Positions 32,551 to 42,195 of a DNA stretch of 45,281 nt are shown in pieces. The notes under the pieces are model-generated. The model was not told where the DNA came from. It made no database searches and saw nothing but the letters and a program-made list of their open reading frames with translations. The position numbers were made by a program, and so were the translations under genes. Location of the stretch: the NCBI GenBank assembly GCA_016288695.1, contig JAEELD010000026.1, positions 81,774 to 127,054 of the forward strand, read 5' to 3'. Origin of the DNA: Mycoplasmataceae bacterium (lineage in GTDB: Bacteria > Bacillota_I > Bacilli_A > Mycoplasmatales > Mycoplasmoidaceae). Position 1 is the first letter of the stretch. Each line of letters opens with the position of its first letter.

Positions 32551-32662
32551 GCTAATTTTTTTAGTATCAAAATTAGCTTTGCTTACAGAATAATGATACT
32601 AAATTACAATAAGGCTTTATGCCGTATCCGCCTGACCTCTTCATGAATGTCAGGTTTTTTTA
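32551..32662 (+). ncRNA. tracrRNA of the type II CRISPR system
   Basis: The segment from 32578 (TTTGCTTACAGAATAATGAT and the following AC) is 22 bases exactly complementary to the CRISPR repeat, then continues with wobble pairs through CTAAATTA. AAGGCTTTATGCC forms the short nexus hairpin seen in many tracrRNAs, and CCTGAC...GTCAGG with a run of T ends the molecule. The 5' part forms a 9-bp hairpin (GCTAATTTT/AAAATTAGC). Ends are predicted, not measured. It guides RNase III processing of crRNA and binds Cas9. It lies upstream of cas1, not next to cas9. Confidence 0.92.
32632..32660 (+). terminator. Rho-independent terminator of the tracrRNA
   Basis: CCTGAC (32631-32636) pairs with GTCAGG (32649-32654), with an inner TTCATGAA palindrome, and seven T follow. 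cas1 begins about 25 bases later, so cas1 expression may depend on read-through. Confidence 0.75.
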
Positions 32663-32685
32663 TTTTATATGTAGTGGAGGTATAT

Positions 32686-33558
32686 GTGGGATTTAAGACA
32701 TTAGAGATAGTTGATGGGGACACATTAAAACTATATCTCAATAATCTATTGATATATAAGAATGAACACAAACTAATTATTCCAATTGATTCAATTGACG
32801 CATTAGTTATTGATAATTGTAGATCGAATATTTCAATCCAATTGTTAAATAAGTTATCTGAAAACAATATCTTAATAATTATTTGTGACAAAAAGCATTT
32901 GCCAGTATCACAAGTATTGCCGTTAAGTGGAAATTATAATTCTCTAAAAATCATTCAAAATCAAATCAAATGAACTAATCAAGAAAAAGGATTTATATGA
33001 AAACAAATAATAAATGAAAAAATTAAAAATCAAATTGAGCTATTAAATTTTTTAAATATTGATATAGATGAATTAAAAATATTAAAAAATCAAATTGAAT
33101 TTTTTGATATTTCAAATAGAGAAGGACATGCTTCAAAAATATATTGGCATAAACTATTTGGGAAGGATTTCAATAGAAATGATGAAAATGATATTAACAT
33201 ATTGCTAAATTATGGTTATGCAATATTACTTAGTTATTTATCAAGATCAATAGTAAAAAAGGGGCTCGATAATAGAATTTCAATATTCCATAAATCATTT
33301 AATAATCATTTTGCTCTAGCATGTGATTTGATGGAACCATTTAGACCAATGGTTGATTACTTGGTACACAAATTTTATTTAGAAAATAAATGCCTTCTTT
33401 TAACAACCCTGAAAGATGAAATAATTAAATTATTTACCAAAAAAATCAAAATAAATGATCAATTCGATTATTTTAATAATGCGATTGATAAAACAATTGA
33501 CTCAGTTATTAAAAATATGAATATTCCAAACATACATATAGATTATGATAAATTCTAG
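32686..33558 (+). CDS. cas1: CRISPR adaptation endonuclease Cas1
   Basis: 290 residues. GTG 32686 with GGAGG five bases upstream is chosen. An ATG at 32647 lies inside the tracrRNA terminator and is rejected. The N-terminal beta domain (LEIVDGDTLKLYLNNLLIY, IPIDSIDALVIDN) and the helical catalytic domain are complete: NREGHASKIYWHKLFG with Glu, NYGYAILLSYLSRSIVKKGLD, IFHKSFNNHFALACDLMEPFRPMVD with His and Glu-Asp residues. TGA Trp at about 32971 and 32998. With Cas2 it integrates new spacers. Confidence 0.95.
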
Positions 33559-33871
33559 ATTTATGAGAATTATGATTATTTTTGATTTACCAACTGTAGA
33601 GTCTTACGAAAAAAAAGAATATAGACAATTCAGAAAAGAATTAATAAAAAATGGGTATATAATGATTCAATTTTCAGTTTATCTAAAATCATTCAACCAT
33701 CAAATAAAATTAAATGATGAAGTAATTAAAATTAGTAAATATATTCCCAAATCTGGAAATATAAGAGCAATTTTGCTAACTGAACATCAATGGGCAAATG
33801 CGGCATTTATTTGTGGTGATAAACAAATAAATGAATTTGTGAATAATAATGAAAGGTTTAACAAAATATAA
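33545..33871 (+). CDS. cas2: CRISPR adaptation protein Cas2
   Basis: 108 residues. MRIMIIFDLPTVESYEKKEYRQFRKELIKNGYIMIQFSVYLK is the ferredoxin-like Cas2 fold. The family start would be ATG 33563; ATG 33545, overlapping the end of cas1 by 14 bases, adds six residues. Type II Cas2 forms the core of the integrase with Cas1. Confidence 0.94.
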   Translation: MINSRFMRIMIIFDLPTVESYEKKEYRQFRKELIKNGYIMIQFSVYLKSFNHQIKLNDEVIKISKYIPKSGNIRAILLTEHQWANAAFICGDKQINEFVNNNERFNKI

Positions 33872-34644
33872 TGATTAAAATTAAAAACAAAAATATTGAT
33901 GAAACATGAGAATATGAAGGATTAAAAGTTATACAAACAAAATATCCAGATAATTTTAATATTCAAATTCTAGATTCAATGAATAAAGGTGAACTTATCG
34001 TACAAATAGATGATAAGTTATGCAACTATAACAGAATACTAAATATTAATCAATATACAAAAACAAAAGATTTACACAATTTTACAAAAAATAATTCACT
34101 AATTGATGAATTATCAAAAATTATAGATTACGATAATTTGATAAATGTGACAAACATATGTGAAAGAATTTCCAAATTTAATAATGAAGTAAATAGTAAT
34201 TTTTTAAGTCTAAAATTGGATAAGACAAAAATATTATCAGCTATTTTTGATATTGATGGTGATTCATTTATGAATGAAAATGAATTAAATTTATTCTTAG
34301 AAAATAATAAAAATACAAATGATAAAAAGCTTATTGTACTTTGCAACATAAAATGAATCACAATGAACAAAATTTTAAAATATTTAAATTATTATTATTT
34401 TTTGATAATAACATCTGATTTCACTAGTTTTTTTAAAAATTATAAAAATGACAATCTTGATGGAATCTTAGTAATAAACAATGATAATAAATTTACTGAT
34501 TTAATTGATTTTTGCAAGCTTTCGGAATATTTAACTCAAAAAACAGGAAATCCTATATCTGAGGAAGAATTAATAAGGGGAATATGTTTAGATAAAAATG
34601 ATGAAAAAATCGAAAAATTTTGCGATTTAATAAAAAAAATTTAA
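33871..34644 (+). CDS. Putative Csn2-like adaptation protein
   Basis: 257 residues in the csn2 position, directly between cas2 (overlap TAATG) and the array. It begins MIKIKNKNIDETWEYEGL. Its second half has an order like Csn2: LSLKLDKTKILSAIFDIDGDS, NELNLFLENN, KKLIVLCNIKWITMNKILKYL, FLIITSDF, comparable to the helical insertion and final strand and helix of Csn2. Overall similarity by eye is weak and it is longer than the 220-residue S. pyogenes protein. Csn2 tetramers bind free DNA ends during spacer acquisition. The call rests mainly on position and length. Confidence 0.55.
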
Positions 34645-34651
34645 TTTTGAC

Positions 34652-35479
34652 GTTTTAGTTTGGTATCATTATTCTGTAAGCAAAAACAAATACCTCGATA
34701 TTTTTTTAGTTTATATTGTTTTAGTTTGGTATCATTATTCTGTAAGCAAAAACTTAAATCATTTAATAAATCTTTAACATGTAGTTTTAGTTTGGTATCA
34801 TTATTCTGTAAGCAAAAACACAAGGCAAAAACTTATCAAAACTAAAATAGTTTTAGTTTGGTATCATTATTCTGTAAGCAAAAACCCTTTTAAAAGTATC
34901 ATGATTATCCATAATGTTTTAGTTTGGTATCATTATTCTGTAAGCAAAAACTTGCTGCTTTTACTTTATTAGAAGTTCGTAGTTTTAGTTTGGTATCATT
35001 ATTCTGTAAGCAAAAACAATTTAGATTTAATTTTTTCAGTATTCATAGTTTTAGTTTGGTATCATTATTCTGTAAGCAAAAACGTTAATTTTCAAATTGA
35101 CACAACAAATGCTGTTTTAGTTTGGTATCATTATTCTGTAAGCAAAAACCAAAATACTAAATAATAATATCAACTCAATGTTTTAGTTTGGTATCATTAT
35201 TCTGTAAGCAAAAACCCAACTTTCTTTAATGCATACCTAGCAGTAGTTTTAGTTTGGTATCATTATTCTGTAAGCAAAAACATATGAATTTTTTAGAAAA
35301 GTCAAATATTGGTTTTAGTTTGGTATCATTATTCTGTAAGCAAAAACTAGTATATAATATATTAATATATTAATAGGGTTTTAGTTTGGTATCATTATTC
35401 TGTAAGCAAAAACCACAGTCCCCGAATGGTTCATCATCGCCTGGTTTTAGTTTGGTATCATTATTCTGTAAGCAAAAAT
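34652..35479 (+). CRISPR. Type II CRISPR array: 13 repeats of 36 bp, 12 spacers of 30 bp
   Basis: The repeat begins GTTTTAGTTTGGTATC and ends CTGTAAGCAAAAAC. Copies start every 66 bases from 34652 to 35444 without exception. Only the last differs (final C replaced by T, 35479), which marks the right end as the old end and the csn2 side as the leader side. The GTTTTAG 5' end and its pairing with the tracrRNA indicate plus-strand transcription. Only 7 bases separate the csn2-like stop from the first repeat. No spacer has an evident match elsewhere in this window. Confidence 0.98.
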
Positions 35480-35595
35480 AAGAACAAATTAAAGTAATAA
35501 AATAGTAAATTTATAAATTTAATGATTAACTTAATTTTATGTAGAATATTAGCATTTATTGAATTAATTAATAATACATAAAATTGACTAATATA

Positions 35596-38500
35596 TTAAT
35601 TAGACGAGAAACGCTTGTCAAATGACATTCTATTATAAACATTACCTAATATATCAGTTTCTATGTAGTCAAAATCTTCAATTAATCTATCTAAAGCAAT
35701 AGTATATTGACCTTGGCGAACTTTATAGTCAGGATTAATTTCTTTATTGTAAAAATTTAATTTTCGTTGGTAGCACATTATCGGTTTAATTTCAACTCTG
35801 TTTCTACTTGGTACACCTACAATATAGAACATTCCTTTCGAAAGAGGTTGGTTTTTTAAACAAATTAATGTATATTTTGCTACATAAACAAGATTCTTCT
35901 TTTTATTAAAACCAAAATCAATAGTTATAGGCTGTATCTCCCATTTTTGATCTTTTTTCGTTAAATGAAAACCAATATTATTTTTTTCAGTAAAAAATGA
36001 AACATATTTGCTAGATTGTTTTAATTTTGTATTAACAAAATATGAATTAATTTCACTACTATAGTATCTTAATCTTCGAATTTTTATTTCTGAATCCTCT
36101 ACATAAGCTAATAAATTTTCACCTTGTTTGTATTCAGGATTTTTATTTAAATAATTTTGAAATGGGTTAGTATTATCTAAATAGTATTCTTTATATATGT
36201 TGCTCAATGTGTAATAAAGTTTCTTGTCTGAATTAAAAATAAATAAATCATTTTGTTTTTTTGGATTTTCTCCAAAAAACTTGCCAAGCTTTTTAACATC
36301 AGATTTTAACAAATCAAGTTTTTTAATCACTCTAATTTTATTATTATATTGAATACCAGAATAAATTGTTTCTCCAAAGAATTGCACATTAGATCTACAA
36401 TTATTAATTTGTCTACTAAAAGTTGGTGGATTTTCAGATAATTTAATATTGGCATACAAATTAGCAAAATTATTAATTAATTCAGACCTATCAAATCTTA
36501 ACTCACCTGTTTCTTTATCAATAATATAATTTTCAAAATTATTTCTATATTTCGCAAAAAACCTATATGCTTTTAAAATAAAATTTTTTGTTGATAGATA
36601 AGCTAAGACAAGTGCATCATCAGCATGATGTCGGTATAATTCTCTTTGCTTACGTGGTATAAATCTTCATAAATCTTTTCTGACATAATTGGTGACTAAT
36701 CCATTAATTGAAAATAATTCCATTTTCATATCATTTAAATCATGTCCATTTTTATATGCTCTGAATATGTCTAATAAACATGAAGTAGATGCTCTTGTAT
36801 CTGCCAAATTCCTACCAATAAAATTTTCAAAATCTTCTAATGGATCTAATCTATAAGTAAGGTTATTAAATTTATCTTTTTCTTTCTTGCTAAACAATTT
36901 CTTCCATCAGTCATTCAACCTTTCAAAATCTTTTGATTTACCTGATTTTTCAAACCACTGATATGGTGTTTGGTCGCCTTTCTCTTTGTTACGGCTTTTT
37001 CTAGTCAAAACCTTATTGTTTTTATTATCCATAAGGGATTTTGAATATGGAATAATATGATCAACATCAAAATTATTTGGATATTCAAGTACTTCTTCAA
37101 GAGTAATATCATCATTATTATCATAAATATCTTTGTATTCTTGCTGAATCAACAAACATAACTTGTATATAACTTTATCCTTCAAGGAACCATTCCATTT
37201 AGAATTCCTAATCCATTTTTCAACTTCTTTTCTTCTATTTTCATTTAACTTTTGCAAATCATTCACTTTTTTTTGTTCATCACTAGAATTCTTCTCTCTT
37301 GCCATCTCGATCGCAATTGACTTTAATGAAAAATCATTGTGAAGAAATTTAATTATTTTATTAAATACCTCAATTGTTTGTCTAATTGACCTCTTTGCTG
37401 TTGGAGAAACAACTAAATTTTTTAATGCTTTATTAGGATTAATGTAAAGATTTTTAATTTTGTTTTGATTATTTAATGATCTTTTAATTAAAATGTTTTG
37501 CTGGTTTTCACCGCTTTCTGACTTAAATAATTGAGGAATACATTCATTCAAAAATTTTATAGAAAATGCATGAGTTTGTGTATATCCCTTAATTTCATCA
37601 ATCATTCCATCTAATTCATTTGAATCAATTTTTATTCCAAAATTACTAATTTCTTTTCTACATGATTCCCGAAGTTTGTCTTTATTTTTTTCTTTTGATT
37701 TGCATTCAACTAACTTATTCACTATGTTTAATTTTTCTGGTTCTTGTCATGGATTAAAATTTTCTAATTTTAATGAATGAAAAATAGTTCTTATATTGCT
37801 AAGGTCTTCAATAATAAATTTTTTATTTTTATCTATCCTATAACCAAAAATTTCATCTATATCACATTTAATAATTTTTGAAAGTCCTTTTTTTGTTAGT
37901 TTACCTTTTTCTATACAATATTTAACAATTTCTTCTTTTAATTTTTGATTAATTCTTCAATCAGGTTCTTTCCTCAAACGTAAATTATTCAAATCATTTA
38001 ATAAATTAAATAATTCAGCTGAACCTGATTTTTTAACTGATCTAAATTCATTTTCATAAACTGTGCATTTACCGATAGTTGTTTCTCATAAAGATTCGCC
38101 TTTTTTCTCAATTTTACCATCTTTATTTTTTATAAATAAACCATATTTTGTTGGTGATTTTTCTGAACCTGGGCCTTTACTATAATCTCGTACACGTGTA
38201 AATAAATGAATATATTTCTCTTTAAAATCATCATCTAACTGTTGATTTGACAAAAATAATCGAATCTCACTTTCTCAACATTTATTACTAAAACATAAAT
38301 TACATGGGTGACCAACATAATAACCATCTTTACTATAGAATTCCTTTTGAATCTCAGATGGTTTCTTTCCACTCTTAATTGAATTATTTACTATTTCCTC
38401 TATAGATTTATCTAATTTTGTTTTTTCTTGTTCATTATCATCGTTTACTTGCTCATCTGGAATATCATAAAAAAAACCACGGTGTTGAAGATAATTAAAT

Positions 38501-38887
38501 AATGCAACACATAATTCAGAATTCGACAATTTCTCTTTTAGACCTTTGATTCTTAAGTCTAATGGGATAGTACTATTGTTTTTTATTAGTTCATAAAACT
38601 TAGTTTTACTTTCTACTAACTGCTTGTTAACAATTAAATCAATAAAGTCATTATTTCTTAAAGCACGTCTTCTAACCAAACGTCGAAAATGTCTTGCATT
38701 TCTTCTTGATAAATTTTTTGGTTTACCATTTTTTTCTTCTGCTGCATCTTCGAATAACCTAACACCATATCAATATCTATTTTTAAAATTTAATAATTTT
38801 CCTTCATCATCTACAACTGCTCAACCCACTGATGCCACACCAACGTCAAAAGCAATATGTATATTTTTTTTTTTTTTTTAATTCCAT
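35596..38887 (-). CDS. cas9: CRISPR nuclease Cas9, start out of frame across a poly-A tract
   Basis: The frame from 38877 down to 35596 is open under code 4, with all interruptions being TGA Trp, and encodes about 1,090 residues. Catalytic motifs are complete: RuvC-I IAFDVGVASVGWAVVD, Arg-rich bridge helix (ARHFRRLVRRRAL), RuvC-II SIAIEMARE, HNH DVDHIIPYSKSL with NNKVLT, RuvC-III RHHADDALVLAYL. If the poly-A run were 15, the residues would be Asp14, Glu527, His610, His754 and Asp757 of 1,096. The only suitable ATG (38887, MEL then Lys) is one base out of frame because the run is 16 A. In the Cas9 frame a TAA stands at 38880-38878, and no ATG, GTG or TTG occurs before RuvC-I. Small-Cas9 size suits type II-A or II-C. 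It is convergent with the array. Confidence 0.93.
38864..38879 (-). repeat. Homopolymer tract (16 A on the coding strand) at the cas9 start
   Basis: Sixteen T on the plus strand, so sixteen A in cas9, begin eight bases after the A of the ATG. Lengths of 15 or 18 join the ATG to the RuvC-I frame; 16 or 17 do not. Long A runs are prone to replication and transcription slippage. Confidence 0.95.
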
Positions 38888-38996: not shown

Positions 38997-39254
38997 ATGA
39001 TCAAAAGCGCTAAAGTTATTAAATTTAAAGTAGTAAATACTAATATAGATAAGAAATTTATTGGTAAAGATTTGGATTTGCAAAAAGTTAGGACCAAAGA
39101 TAGCCCTACAACAAAGCCAAGAGCTAAAGCTCCAGCTTGGTTTGCTAGTTTCAGAGATGAAGTTATACAAAGATTTGATAGACAAGATAAACGTTTTAAT
39201 AGATTAGAAAATAGAATTGATGGGATAGTTAATGTTAATAACTTAAAAGAGTAA
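38997..39254 (+). CDS. Small coiled-coil protein, cassette 1
   Basis: 85 residues. It begins MIKSAKVIKFKVVNTNIDKK FIGKDLDLQKV, which is almost identical to the start of the 40953-41408 protein. It ends in heptad-like sequence (VIQRFDRQDKRFNRLENRIDGIV) and a shared NVNNLKE terminus. The charged helical tail resembles DUF16-type coiled-coil proteins of mycoplasmas, but that link is only by pattern. It appears leaderless. The ToxN-like gene follows after 200 bases with its own promoter. Function unknown. Confidence 0.7.
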   Translation: MIKSAKVIKFKVVNTNIDKKFIGKDLDLQKVRTKDSPTTKPRAKAPAWFASFRDEVIQRFDRQDKRFNRLENRIDGIVNVNNLKE

Positions 39255-39456: not shown

Positions 39457-40056
39457 ATGAACAATAAATTTAAAATCTATGAAGTAGATCAACATCTTAT
39501 TGATTATTTACGTGGTGATGGCGAATTTGCTGATCGTCCAAGTAAAGAAGTAGATAAACAAGTATATTCACACTACGGATTAGACAGAAGAAATTCTGAT
39601 AAGTATTTTGGCGTAATTATTAAATATAAAAATTTTTCAATGTTTGCTCCTATCACTCATGATGGAGATAAAAAATGATTTAATCGAGATGATACATATG
39701 ATATTGAAAAAGTATATGATGGTTTTGGTAAGTATTCAGGTGCACTGTTATTGTGCAAAGCTTTATCTTTAGACAAAATATTAACAAAAAATGTTAATTT
39801 TCATAAACTCATTCAAACCAATTACCAATATGCACGTTTATGTATTGATGAATTAAAATATTTAAATCAACCTGAAATTCATGAAAGAGTTGTTAAGAAA
39901 ATGGCAGCATGTTTGGGAAACAAACCATCTAAATGTCAACATTTAAGAGTTAACTATCAGTTATGTGTTAATAATATTCCACCTTATCTCAAATTAATTA
40001 AATCTGAAAAAACAAAAGAACTAAAGAAAGAGCAAAAAGATGAACTAGTGAAATAA
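39457..40056 (+). CDS. ToxN/AbiQ-like type III toxin, cassette 1
   Basis: 199 residues with one TGA Trp at 39676. The N-terminal pattern FKIYEVDQHLIDYLRG, then KYFGVIIKYKNFSMFAPITHDGDKKW, matches the ToxN/AbiQ layout (Y..I...YI.YL, then GIVLEI...YLAPLTSPK.W). A strand (SGALLLCKALSLD) and C-terminal helices with a regular Tyr-Leu spacing follow. ToxN proteins are endoribonucleases held inactive by a cognate RNA encoded just upstream. The catalytic Thr of the PLTSPK region has a counterpart in APITHDG. Call is by pattern, without a database search. Confidence 0.65.
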
Positions 40057-40058
40057 AA

Positions 40059-40655
40059 TTACAATCTATGTAATTTTTCAAACAAATCTTTATCTTTTTC
40101 TTTTGATCAATAATTGATTGGATATCGCTCAGTTAAACTTCTATATAAACATTTTTCATATCTAGGGAAATTTGTTTTAAATCTTTTTATTAATTCTAGA
40201 TAAACATCCAAATCACTAATAATAACTTTATGAGTATTTAATCTCCACATTTGTTTAGTTTTTCAGCCAGAATAAACATCATTTAATTCAGGCACTAAAA
40301 AATTTATAACTCCACCAAAACCAACACTTTGATCTTGCTTTTTATCTTTGTGTGGATTTTCACAAATTAAAATATGAAGGAACAAATGTTCTAGCAAATC
40401 ACAATATACTAACTTATCAGCATATTGCCATTCATAAGGTGATTGCATAGCATATATTTTTTTTCCCAACATAATTGCATGATCTTCCATTATGTGGTGT
40501 ATATTAAGTCCCTCATTCGTCCTTTTGATTTTTGGGTTTGGGCTTCAATTCGGAGTAAAGAAATTACCTTGTGGCATACCATATTTTTTATGCAAATAAT
40601 TACAATAATTTAAATAGTTAAATTCTTTAATTTTTTTTCATTCTTTTAAATTCAT
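40059..40655 (-). CDS. Unknown protein with His-rich motif (HHxxED, EHLxLH)
   Basis: 198 residues from ATG 40655 to TAA 40059, with four TGA Trp codons. Conserved-looking elements are YGMPQGNFFTPNW, EGLNIHHIMEDHAI, SPYEWQYADKLVYCDLLEHLFLHI and VGFGGVINFLVPELN. The paired His and acidic residues suggest metal binding, perhaps an HNH-like or other nuclease fold. I do not recognise the family. It is convergent with and only two bases from the ToxN-like gene, between the two cassettes. Confidence 0.7.
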
Positions 40656-40952: not shown

Positions 40953-41408
40953 ATGAGCAAAAGTGCTAGGGTTGTTAAATATAAAGTAATTAATACTAAT
41001 ATAGATAAGAAATTTATTGGTAAAGATTTAGATTTACAAAAAGTTGAATCTAAAGATGGTTATGATGAAGGTGAAAGAAAGCCAAGCATCAACAATAAAA
41101 TTACTTTGTCTAAACTCTCTAATAAAGTTGATAGTTTATCAAATGATTTAAATAGAGTATCAACTAATTTAAATAAACTATCAAATGATTTAAATGTTTT
41201 AACTAATAATTTAAATGTTTTAACTAATAATTTTAATGTTTTAACTAATAATTTGGATAATGTAACTAATAATTTAAATAAGTTATCTAAGATTGTTACT
41301 GATGGTTTTGCAGAACAAGCCAAATTTAATAAACAACAGTTAGAATTTAATAAAACTATTATCAATAGAATTGATAATTTAGTTAAAGTTAATAACCTAA
41401 AAGAATAA
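40953..41408 (+). CDS. Coiled-coil protein with heptad repeats, cassette 2
   Basis: 151 residues. The N-terminal 30 residues (MSKSARVVKYKVINTNIDKK and IGKDLDLQKV) and the C-terminal VNNLKE match the 85-residue paralogue at 38997. Between them is a long heptad array, including four 7-residue units of the type LNVLTNN, predicted to be a continuous oligomeric coiled coil. TATAAT ends six bases before the ATG, as in the first copy. Function unknown; resembles mycoplasma DUF16-like proteins in pattern. Confidence 0.72.
   Translation: MSKSARVVKYKVINTNIDKKFIGKDLDLQKVESKDGYDEGERKPSINNKITLSKLSNKVDSLSNDLNRVSTNLNKLSNDLNVLTNNLNVLTNNFNVLTNNLDNVTNNLNKLSKIVTDGFAEQAKFNKQQLEFNKTIINRIDNLVKVNNLKE
41190..41273 (+). 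repeat. Four 21-bp tandem repeats inside the coiled-coil gene
   Basis: Units of the type TTAAATGTTTTAACTAATAA plus T start at 41190, 41211, 41232 and 41253; the first three are nearly identical and the fourth has diverged. Each encodes one heptad, so unit gain or loss would change coiled-coil length without a frameshift. Confidence 0.85.
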
Positions 41409-41607: not shown

Positions 41608-42195
41608 ATGTCTAATAATAAATTTAAAATCTATGAAGTAGATCAGCATCTTATTAATTATTTAAGGGGAGATGGAGAATTTGTTAACCGACAAAGCAAC
41701 AAAGTAGATAAGCAAGTATATTCACATTATCGATTAAATAAAAAAAATTCTGATAAGTATTTTGGTGTGATTATTGAATATAAAGGTTTTTCGATGTTTG
41801 CACCTATCACACATGATGGAAATAAGAATTGATATAACCGTGATGACACATATGATTTTGAAAAAGTATATGATAATATGAACAAATATGCAGGTTCACT
41901 ATTATTGTGTAAAGCCATACCTTTAAATAAAACTTTAACAAAAAATGTTAATTTTAGTGAATTAGCTAAAATTGATTTAAAGTATGTCAGATTGTGTCTT
42001 AATGAATTAAAATATTTAAATCAACCAGAAGTTCATCAAAGAGTTATTAAGAAAATGATAGCTTGTTTAGAAAACAAACCATCTGAATGTCAACATCTGA
42101 GAGTTAACTATCAGTTATGTGCTCATAATGTTTTGCTTTATCTCGAATTAATTAAATCTGAAAAAGCAAAAGAATTTAAGTTATCAAAAAGATAA
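41608..42195 (+). CDS. ToxN/AbiQ-like type III toxin, cassette 2
   Basis: 195 residues, paralogue of 39457-40056 along its whole length (FKIYEVDQHLINYLRGDGEF, SDKYFGVIIEYKGFSMFAPI, CQHLRVNYQLC). One TGA Trp near 41830. The core shared by the two copies gives the likely essential residues: Tyr in KIYE, the Lys-Tyr-Phe-Gly strand, and THDG followed by Lys and Trp. No Shine-Dalgarno site precedes either start. Confidence 0.65.

Follow-up and report, generated by a model that had tools for sequence, protein, structure and literature searches.

Long simple-sequence tracts at cas9 starts in a mycoplasma family point to a candidate contingency locus in CRISPR-Cas9 immunity

The CRISPR-Cas locus and the reading frame of cas9

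The window (the whole stretch of DNA that was analysed, 45,281 nt) contains a type II-A CRISPR-Cas locus, in which a tracrRNA anti-repeat, cas1, cas2, csn2 and a CRISPR array are followed by cas9, inverted on the opposite strand. The features of the locus, including those at the start of cas9, were as follows.

32573-32605, plus strand: tracrRNA anti-repeat, ends approximate; pairing with the repeat at -40 kcal/mol, best alternative site in the window -25
32593-33558, plus strand: cas1 (type II), TIGR03639, E 6e-90 from residue 34
33545-33871, plus strand: cas2
33871-34644, plus strand: csn2, PADLOC Csn2, E 1e-24
34653-35480, plus strand: CRISPR array; of its 13 repeats (36 nt) the first 12 are identical and the last differs by a single change; 12 distinct spacers of 30 nt
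35596-38877, minus strand: Cas9 reading frame, 1,093 codons (code 4), TIGR01865, 486 bits, E 2e-145
38783-38887, minus strand: predicted OFF product, the ORF open from the ATG at 38887 with 16 A, 34 aa, MELKKKKKYTYCFWRWCGISGLSSCRWWRKIIKF, from frame reading
38864-38879, minus strand: tract of 16 A, candidate switch by slippage, with its first base in codon 3 of the open frame
38878-38880, minus strand: TAA at the 5' edge of the tract, in frame with Cas9, blocking any earlier start in that frame
38885-38887, minus strand: probable cas9 start codon ATG, in agreement with the position of homologue starts; product MEL-Lys(n)-NIHIAFDVG if the number of A is divisible by 3

A catalytic Cas9, cas1 together with cas2 and csn2, and an array together with a tracrRNA anti-repeat were all identified at this locus. 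The true start of cas1 probably lies about 30 codons inside the annotated ORF, because position 32593 falls within the anti-repeat. The RuvC and HNH catalytic residues of Cas9 (D11, E524, D606/H607, N630, H751 and D754), which are invariant in the family alignment, are kept and no other lesion was found in the 1,093 codons, which bears out the argument of the original prediction that the rest of the gene is intact and not in decay. The frame at the tract is the sole sign of decay at the locus, and apart from it the sequence describes what looks like a complete and functional type II-A system. The protospacer search returned one weak match, of 26 nt, to a staphylococcal phage, and no exact protospacer for four of the spacers was found in viral_contigs.

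Several genes beside cas9 were recorded as well. A small coiled-coil protein is encoded divergently and directly upstream of cas9 (38997-39254, plus strand), with a paralogue 2 kb off (40953-41408) and a relative near the cas9 of genome G002 (L249, 14023-14274, E 6e-8). Two ToxN/AbiQ-like genes (39457-40056 and 41608-42195, plus strand) may belong to modules of type III toxin-antitoxin or abortive infection, and a SAV1803-related domain protein (40059-40655, minus strand; NF053682, E 2e-38) sits between them; a tandem-repeat scan revealed no clear repeat antitoxin adjoining the ToxN-like genes.

On the minus strand, the ATG at 38887-38885 is followed by GAATT, by the 16 A (38879-38864) and then by TATACATATTGC / TATACATATTGCTTTTGACGTTGG, and the Cas9 frame is one base off this ATG. 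The tract is a long simple repeat with a length that sets the reading frame: when the frame was computed for each length, whole Cas9 was obtained from 9, 12, 15, 18 and 21 A, the 34-aa peptide from 16 A and a 25-aa peptide from 17 A. Reading of the Cas9 frame from 38877 onward under code 4 revealed no usable start before the RuvC-I motif, and the only near-cognate starts close by are GTG codons 14 and 17, both of which lie past the catalytic Asp 11. The original prediction had described the motif as one base out of frame behind the ATG and 16 A, had pointed to the TAA at 38880-38878 and to the lack of any start before RuvC-I, and had held that 15 or 18 A would make the gene whole; re-reading of the minus strand agreed with it in all details re-checked.

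Long tracts in the discovery genome and in its family

The longest other A/T run in the window has 9 nt. In the assembly of the discovery genome (G000; 607 kb in 27 contigs), 15 A/T runs of at least 10 nt were counted, 11 of them exactly 10 nt long, and only the 16-A tract and one 15-nt run exceed 12 nt (the same two being all the runs of at least 14 nt), these counts resting on pattern searches and retrieved stretches. The second long run, T15 (C2:356-370), is located in front of a gene for a typical surface lipoprotein (MKKSKLFKTLLIPSLGILSLGSIVTLVASCG), six bases 5' of a TATAAT, and this T15-TATAAT-lipoprotein layout in the genome that bears the cas9 under study is a classical mycoplasma contingency arrangement. 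This T15 (L021, G000:C2:356) and a T12 (L166/L033, G000:C8:62783) share a common upstream motif, AAAAGTTTTGTT, and both lie close to contig ends; they may represent a family of repeated, phase-variable lipoprotein promoters at which the assembly breaks.

A scan of genome contigs with a single Cas9 protein as query gave no match, and an alignment was the query that retrieved relatives. Cas9 above the family cut-off was found in 36 of the 95 genomes of the family. The other readable cas9 starts of the family are ATG in all but two cases and GTG in those two, and are located about 6-15 codons before the motif, the distance at which ATG 38887 also falls. A tract was defined as an A or T run of at least 14 nt or a TA run of at least 18 nt within -150 to +30 of the cas9 start, and by this definition 8 of the 36 start regions that could be read have a tract, that of the discovery genome among them.

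G000 (discovery genome): A16, in the coding frame
G002: TA, 28 nt, from the TATAAT box to the ATG; longest TA tract of G002
G035: TA, 20-21 nt at -32; only TA tract of at least 18 nt in the G035 assembly
G056: TA, 19 nt at -66
G118: T17 at -95, adjoining a -10-like box (T17-ACAATA)
G132: T15 at -92, at a contig end; weaker case
G112: T19 at -120, after a stem-loop; weaker case
G036: A17 at -28 (L260, G036:C1:592000-608000), cas9 in several broken frames; weaker case

The T19 of G112 may be the terminator of the upstream gene, and the cas9 of G036 may once have been a contingency locus and now be decaying. In all seven of the other tract-bearing genes the tract is upstream of the start codon, and none of the other readable start regions of the family shares the A tract inside the frame. 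The eight genes occupy eight separate branches of the Cas9 tree, which indicates that the repeats either arose separately in each lineage or are replaced rapidly. The A tract as such is not conserved among orthologues; L002, the closest Cas9 at about 40% identity, starts with an ordinary ATG and lacks a tract. The comparison of orthologues that the original prediction had proposed was answered in two ways, the same A tract not being kept and some long tract recurring at cas9 starts. No second copy of the cas9 start of the discovery genome was found in viral_contigs, and the comparison covers one genome per species.

Recurrence at the same gene, on eight branches, goes beyond chance: 8 tract-bearing starts among the 36 were seen against 0.42 expected (p = 4e-9), or 7 against 0.41 without the discovery genome (p = 1e-7), these and the following p values being a guide and not an exact test because the thresholds (14, 18 and -150 to +30) were chosen after the first cases had been seen. 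The null was deliberately conservative, with tracts counted per genome and each assumed to lie at the 5' end of a different gene. Among the other genes near cas9 in the family, only 1 of 254 carried a tract (Fisher p = 2e-7 against cas9), a count that excludes the broken cas9 of G036 and becomes 2 of 255 if it is taken as a neighbour; the 434 kb around the family cas9 genes contain ten such tracts, eight of which are at cas9. Removal of G112, G036 and G132 left 5 of 33 (Fisher p = 8e-5). A wide scan of bacterial genomes yielded 80 readable cas9 starts, of which three have a tract, namely those of G132, G056 and G112 themselves, and none of the 68 non-family starts carried one, which is a weaker comparison since those genomes are mostly less AT-rich.

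As for the other genes that carry such tracts, about one third of 32 tracts sampled in the genus were located where a gene for a lipoprotein or an exported protein begins, and the layout of ATG, 3-6 nt and A14-A17 was found at three other loci of the genus (L096, L088 and L112). The cas9 promoter of G118 (T17-ACAATA) and a lipoprotein promoter on the same contig (T16-ACAATA) are built alike. An in-frame A15 that encodes five lysines was found in atpD of G007 (L102, G007:C36:11970; ATP synthase beta subunit), where, the gene being essential, so long a tract would be unusual and may instead be an artefact of the assembly; a long tract alone is thus no proof of adaptive switching.

A proposed switch at the cas9 start and its alternatives

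We consider it likely that the run of 16 A at the start of cas9 is a contingency tract, hypermutable by strand slippage, and the best reading of the genome comparisons is that cas9 may serve as a recurrent slipped-strand contingency locus in this mycoplasma family. Replication slippage would lengthen or shorten the tract. Ribosomes that start at ATG 38887 would make whole Cas9 if the tract has 12, 15 or 18 A (ON) and would stop within a few dozen codons if it has 16 or 17 A (OFF), so that the population would mix cells with and without immunity. The consensus of the sequenced DNA would be an OFF allele, and in that state some Cas9 could leak through by RNA polymerase or ribosome slippage on the tract. 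No self-targeting spacers were found as a reason for an OFF state, the best match outside the array in the genome being 21 nt at 95% and such matches being short and at chance level. We infer that tract length varies in the population, that this variation switches the level of Cas9 and that it is under selection; the benefit would be less autoimmunity or relief from blocked DNA uptake, while part of the population stays immune. The phase-variable Cas9 that had been proposed at the outset gains support from the recurrence at cas9 starts, from its spread over separate branches and from the like tracts at lipoprotein genes.

A miscounted homopolymer, the real tract having 15 (or 18) A and cas9 being simply ON in the sequenced population, is a serious contender to which we assign somewhat less than an even chance. 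Errors of one base in either direction are common for runs of about 16 nt in PCR-amplified short reads, this 16-nt homopolymer stands in what is apparently a metagenome assembly and may be off by one, and public assemblies of the same family bear short-read style contig names. Against this, the 9-10-nt A/T runs that could be placed in genes of the same assembly all keep the frame, which suggests that length errors are not general in it, though such runs are far easier to read than those of 16 nt. A miscount would also alter the reported state, not the existence of a tract of about 15-16 A nor the recurrence of tracts at the cas9 genes of relatives, and so is compatible with a contingency tract. 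Slippage on the tract during transcription or translation, by which every cell would hold a fixed fraction of in-frame Cas9 as a constant dimmer and no heritable switch would exist, we regard as rather doubtful. Work on E. coli and Buchnera has shown that insertions by bacterial RNA polymerase at A/T runs rise exponentially with run length and that deletions are much rarer than insertions (PMC5574713); the cas9 of the discovery genome needs -1 or +2 nt to restore its frame. In the other seven cas9 genes, however, the tract precedes the start codon, where a slipped transcript would restore no frame; this position fits an output of the promoter or 5'UTR that depends on tract length in the DNA. 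Slippage on DNA and on RNA are compatible, and transcriptional slippage possibly provides a low level of Cas9 in the OFF state.

Recent inactivation, in which cas9 has just been lost by a frameshift at a weak spot and decay is beginning, appears improbable. Decay of mycoplasma cas9 by stop codons and frameshifts is known, as described in M. gallisepticum from house finches (PMC11893278) and in M. arthritidis (PMC6882279), and the cas9 of G036 combines a 5' tract with a broken gene. The absence of any other lesion in the 1,093 codons, the retained tracrRNA pairing and the identity of 12 of the 13 repeats nevertheless argue against it, and among the other seven tract-bearing cas9 genes that of G036 alone is visibly broken. 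Even less credence, and very little of it, is given to a non-AUG start past the tract (ATA at codon 6 or ATT at codon 8 of the Cas9 frame), which would make the tract irrelevant: both codons are possible starts in code table 4, but the ordinary ATG and GTG starts of the family homologues, and the fact that ATG 38887 stands at their distance from the motif, weaken this alternative, which had been raised in the original prediction.

Known systems and meaning for the family

The closest known system to the proposed contingency tract is the phase variation of mycoplasma surface lipoproteins by homopolymer slippage (Vlp-type promoters). As in those genes, a single long simple repeat is located at the 5' end of the gene, and the same type of tract is found at lipoprotein genes of the discovery genome and its relatives. 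The methyltransferase (RM) genes of M. agalactiae, which are phase-variable via poly(G) or poly(GA) frameshifts, are a precedent for phase-variable defence-type genes in mollicutes (PMC9465063). Here, by contrast, the target is the CRISPR effector Cas9, the tract of this species is inside the coding frame, and the switching is proposed from sequence. The frameshift-prone poly(A) at the 5' end of Listeria inlA, which varies about 1,000 times as often as an average point mutation occurs, resembles the present one in that a poly(A) lies near the start codon and a length change leads to a very short peptide, and differs from it in the gene, in belonging to a cultured species and in that frame restoration was measured (PMC2831843). 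The locus shares cas9, cas1, cas2, csn2, a tracrRNA and 36-nt repeats with the mollicute type II-A systems (PMC6882279; M. gallisepticum, PMC11893278), and a term search of the text of these two papers revealed no mention of phase variation or repeats at cas9 starts. A keyword search of the open-access literature found no report of phase-variable Cas9, which is no proof of absence; the kind of mechanism is known, and its use on a CRISPR effector, repeatedly in one family, appears to be new.

We lean towards the view that CRISPR-Cas9 immunity in this family is a bet-hedged, phase-variable trait, for which independent lineages have repeatedly evolved different slippery repeats (A within the frame, T next to the -10 box, TA from the -10 box to the ATG), so that each population would keep ON and OFF cells. 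Gene loss or regulators are the usual answers to the question of how bacteria weigh the benefit of CRISPR immunity against its costs, autoimmunity and a block to DNA uptake. If the proposed contingency locus is real, a switch that acts on cas9 itself and is heritable, reversible and stochastic would add another answer, with the mixture of immune and non-immune cells built in, and an out-of-frame cas9 in a mycoplasma genome would not necessarily be a pseudogene.
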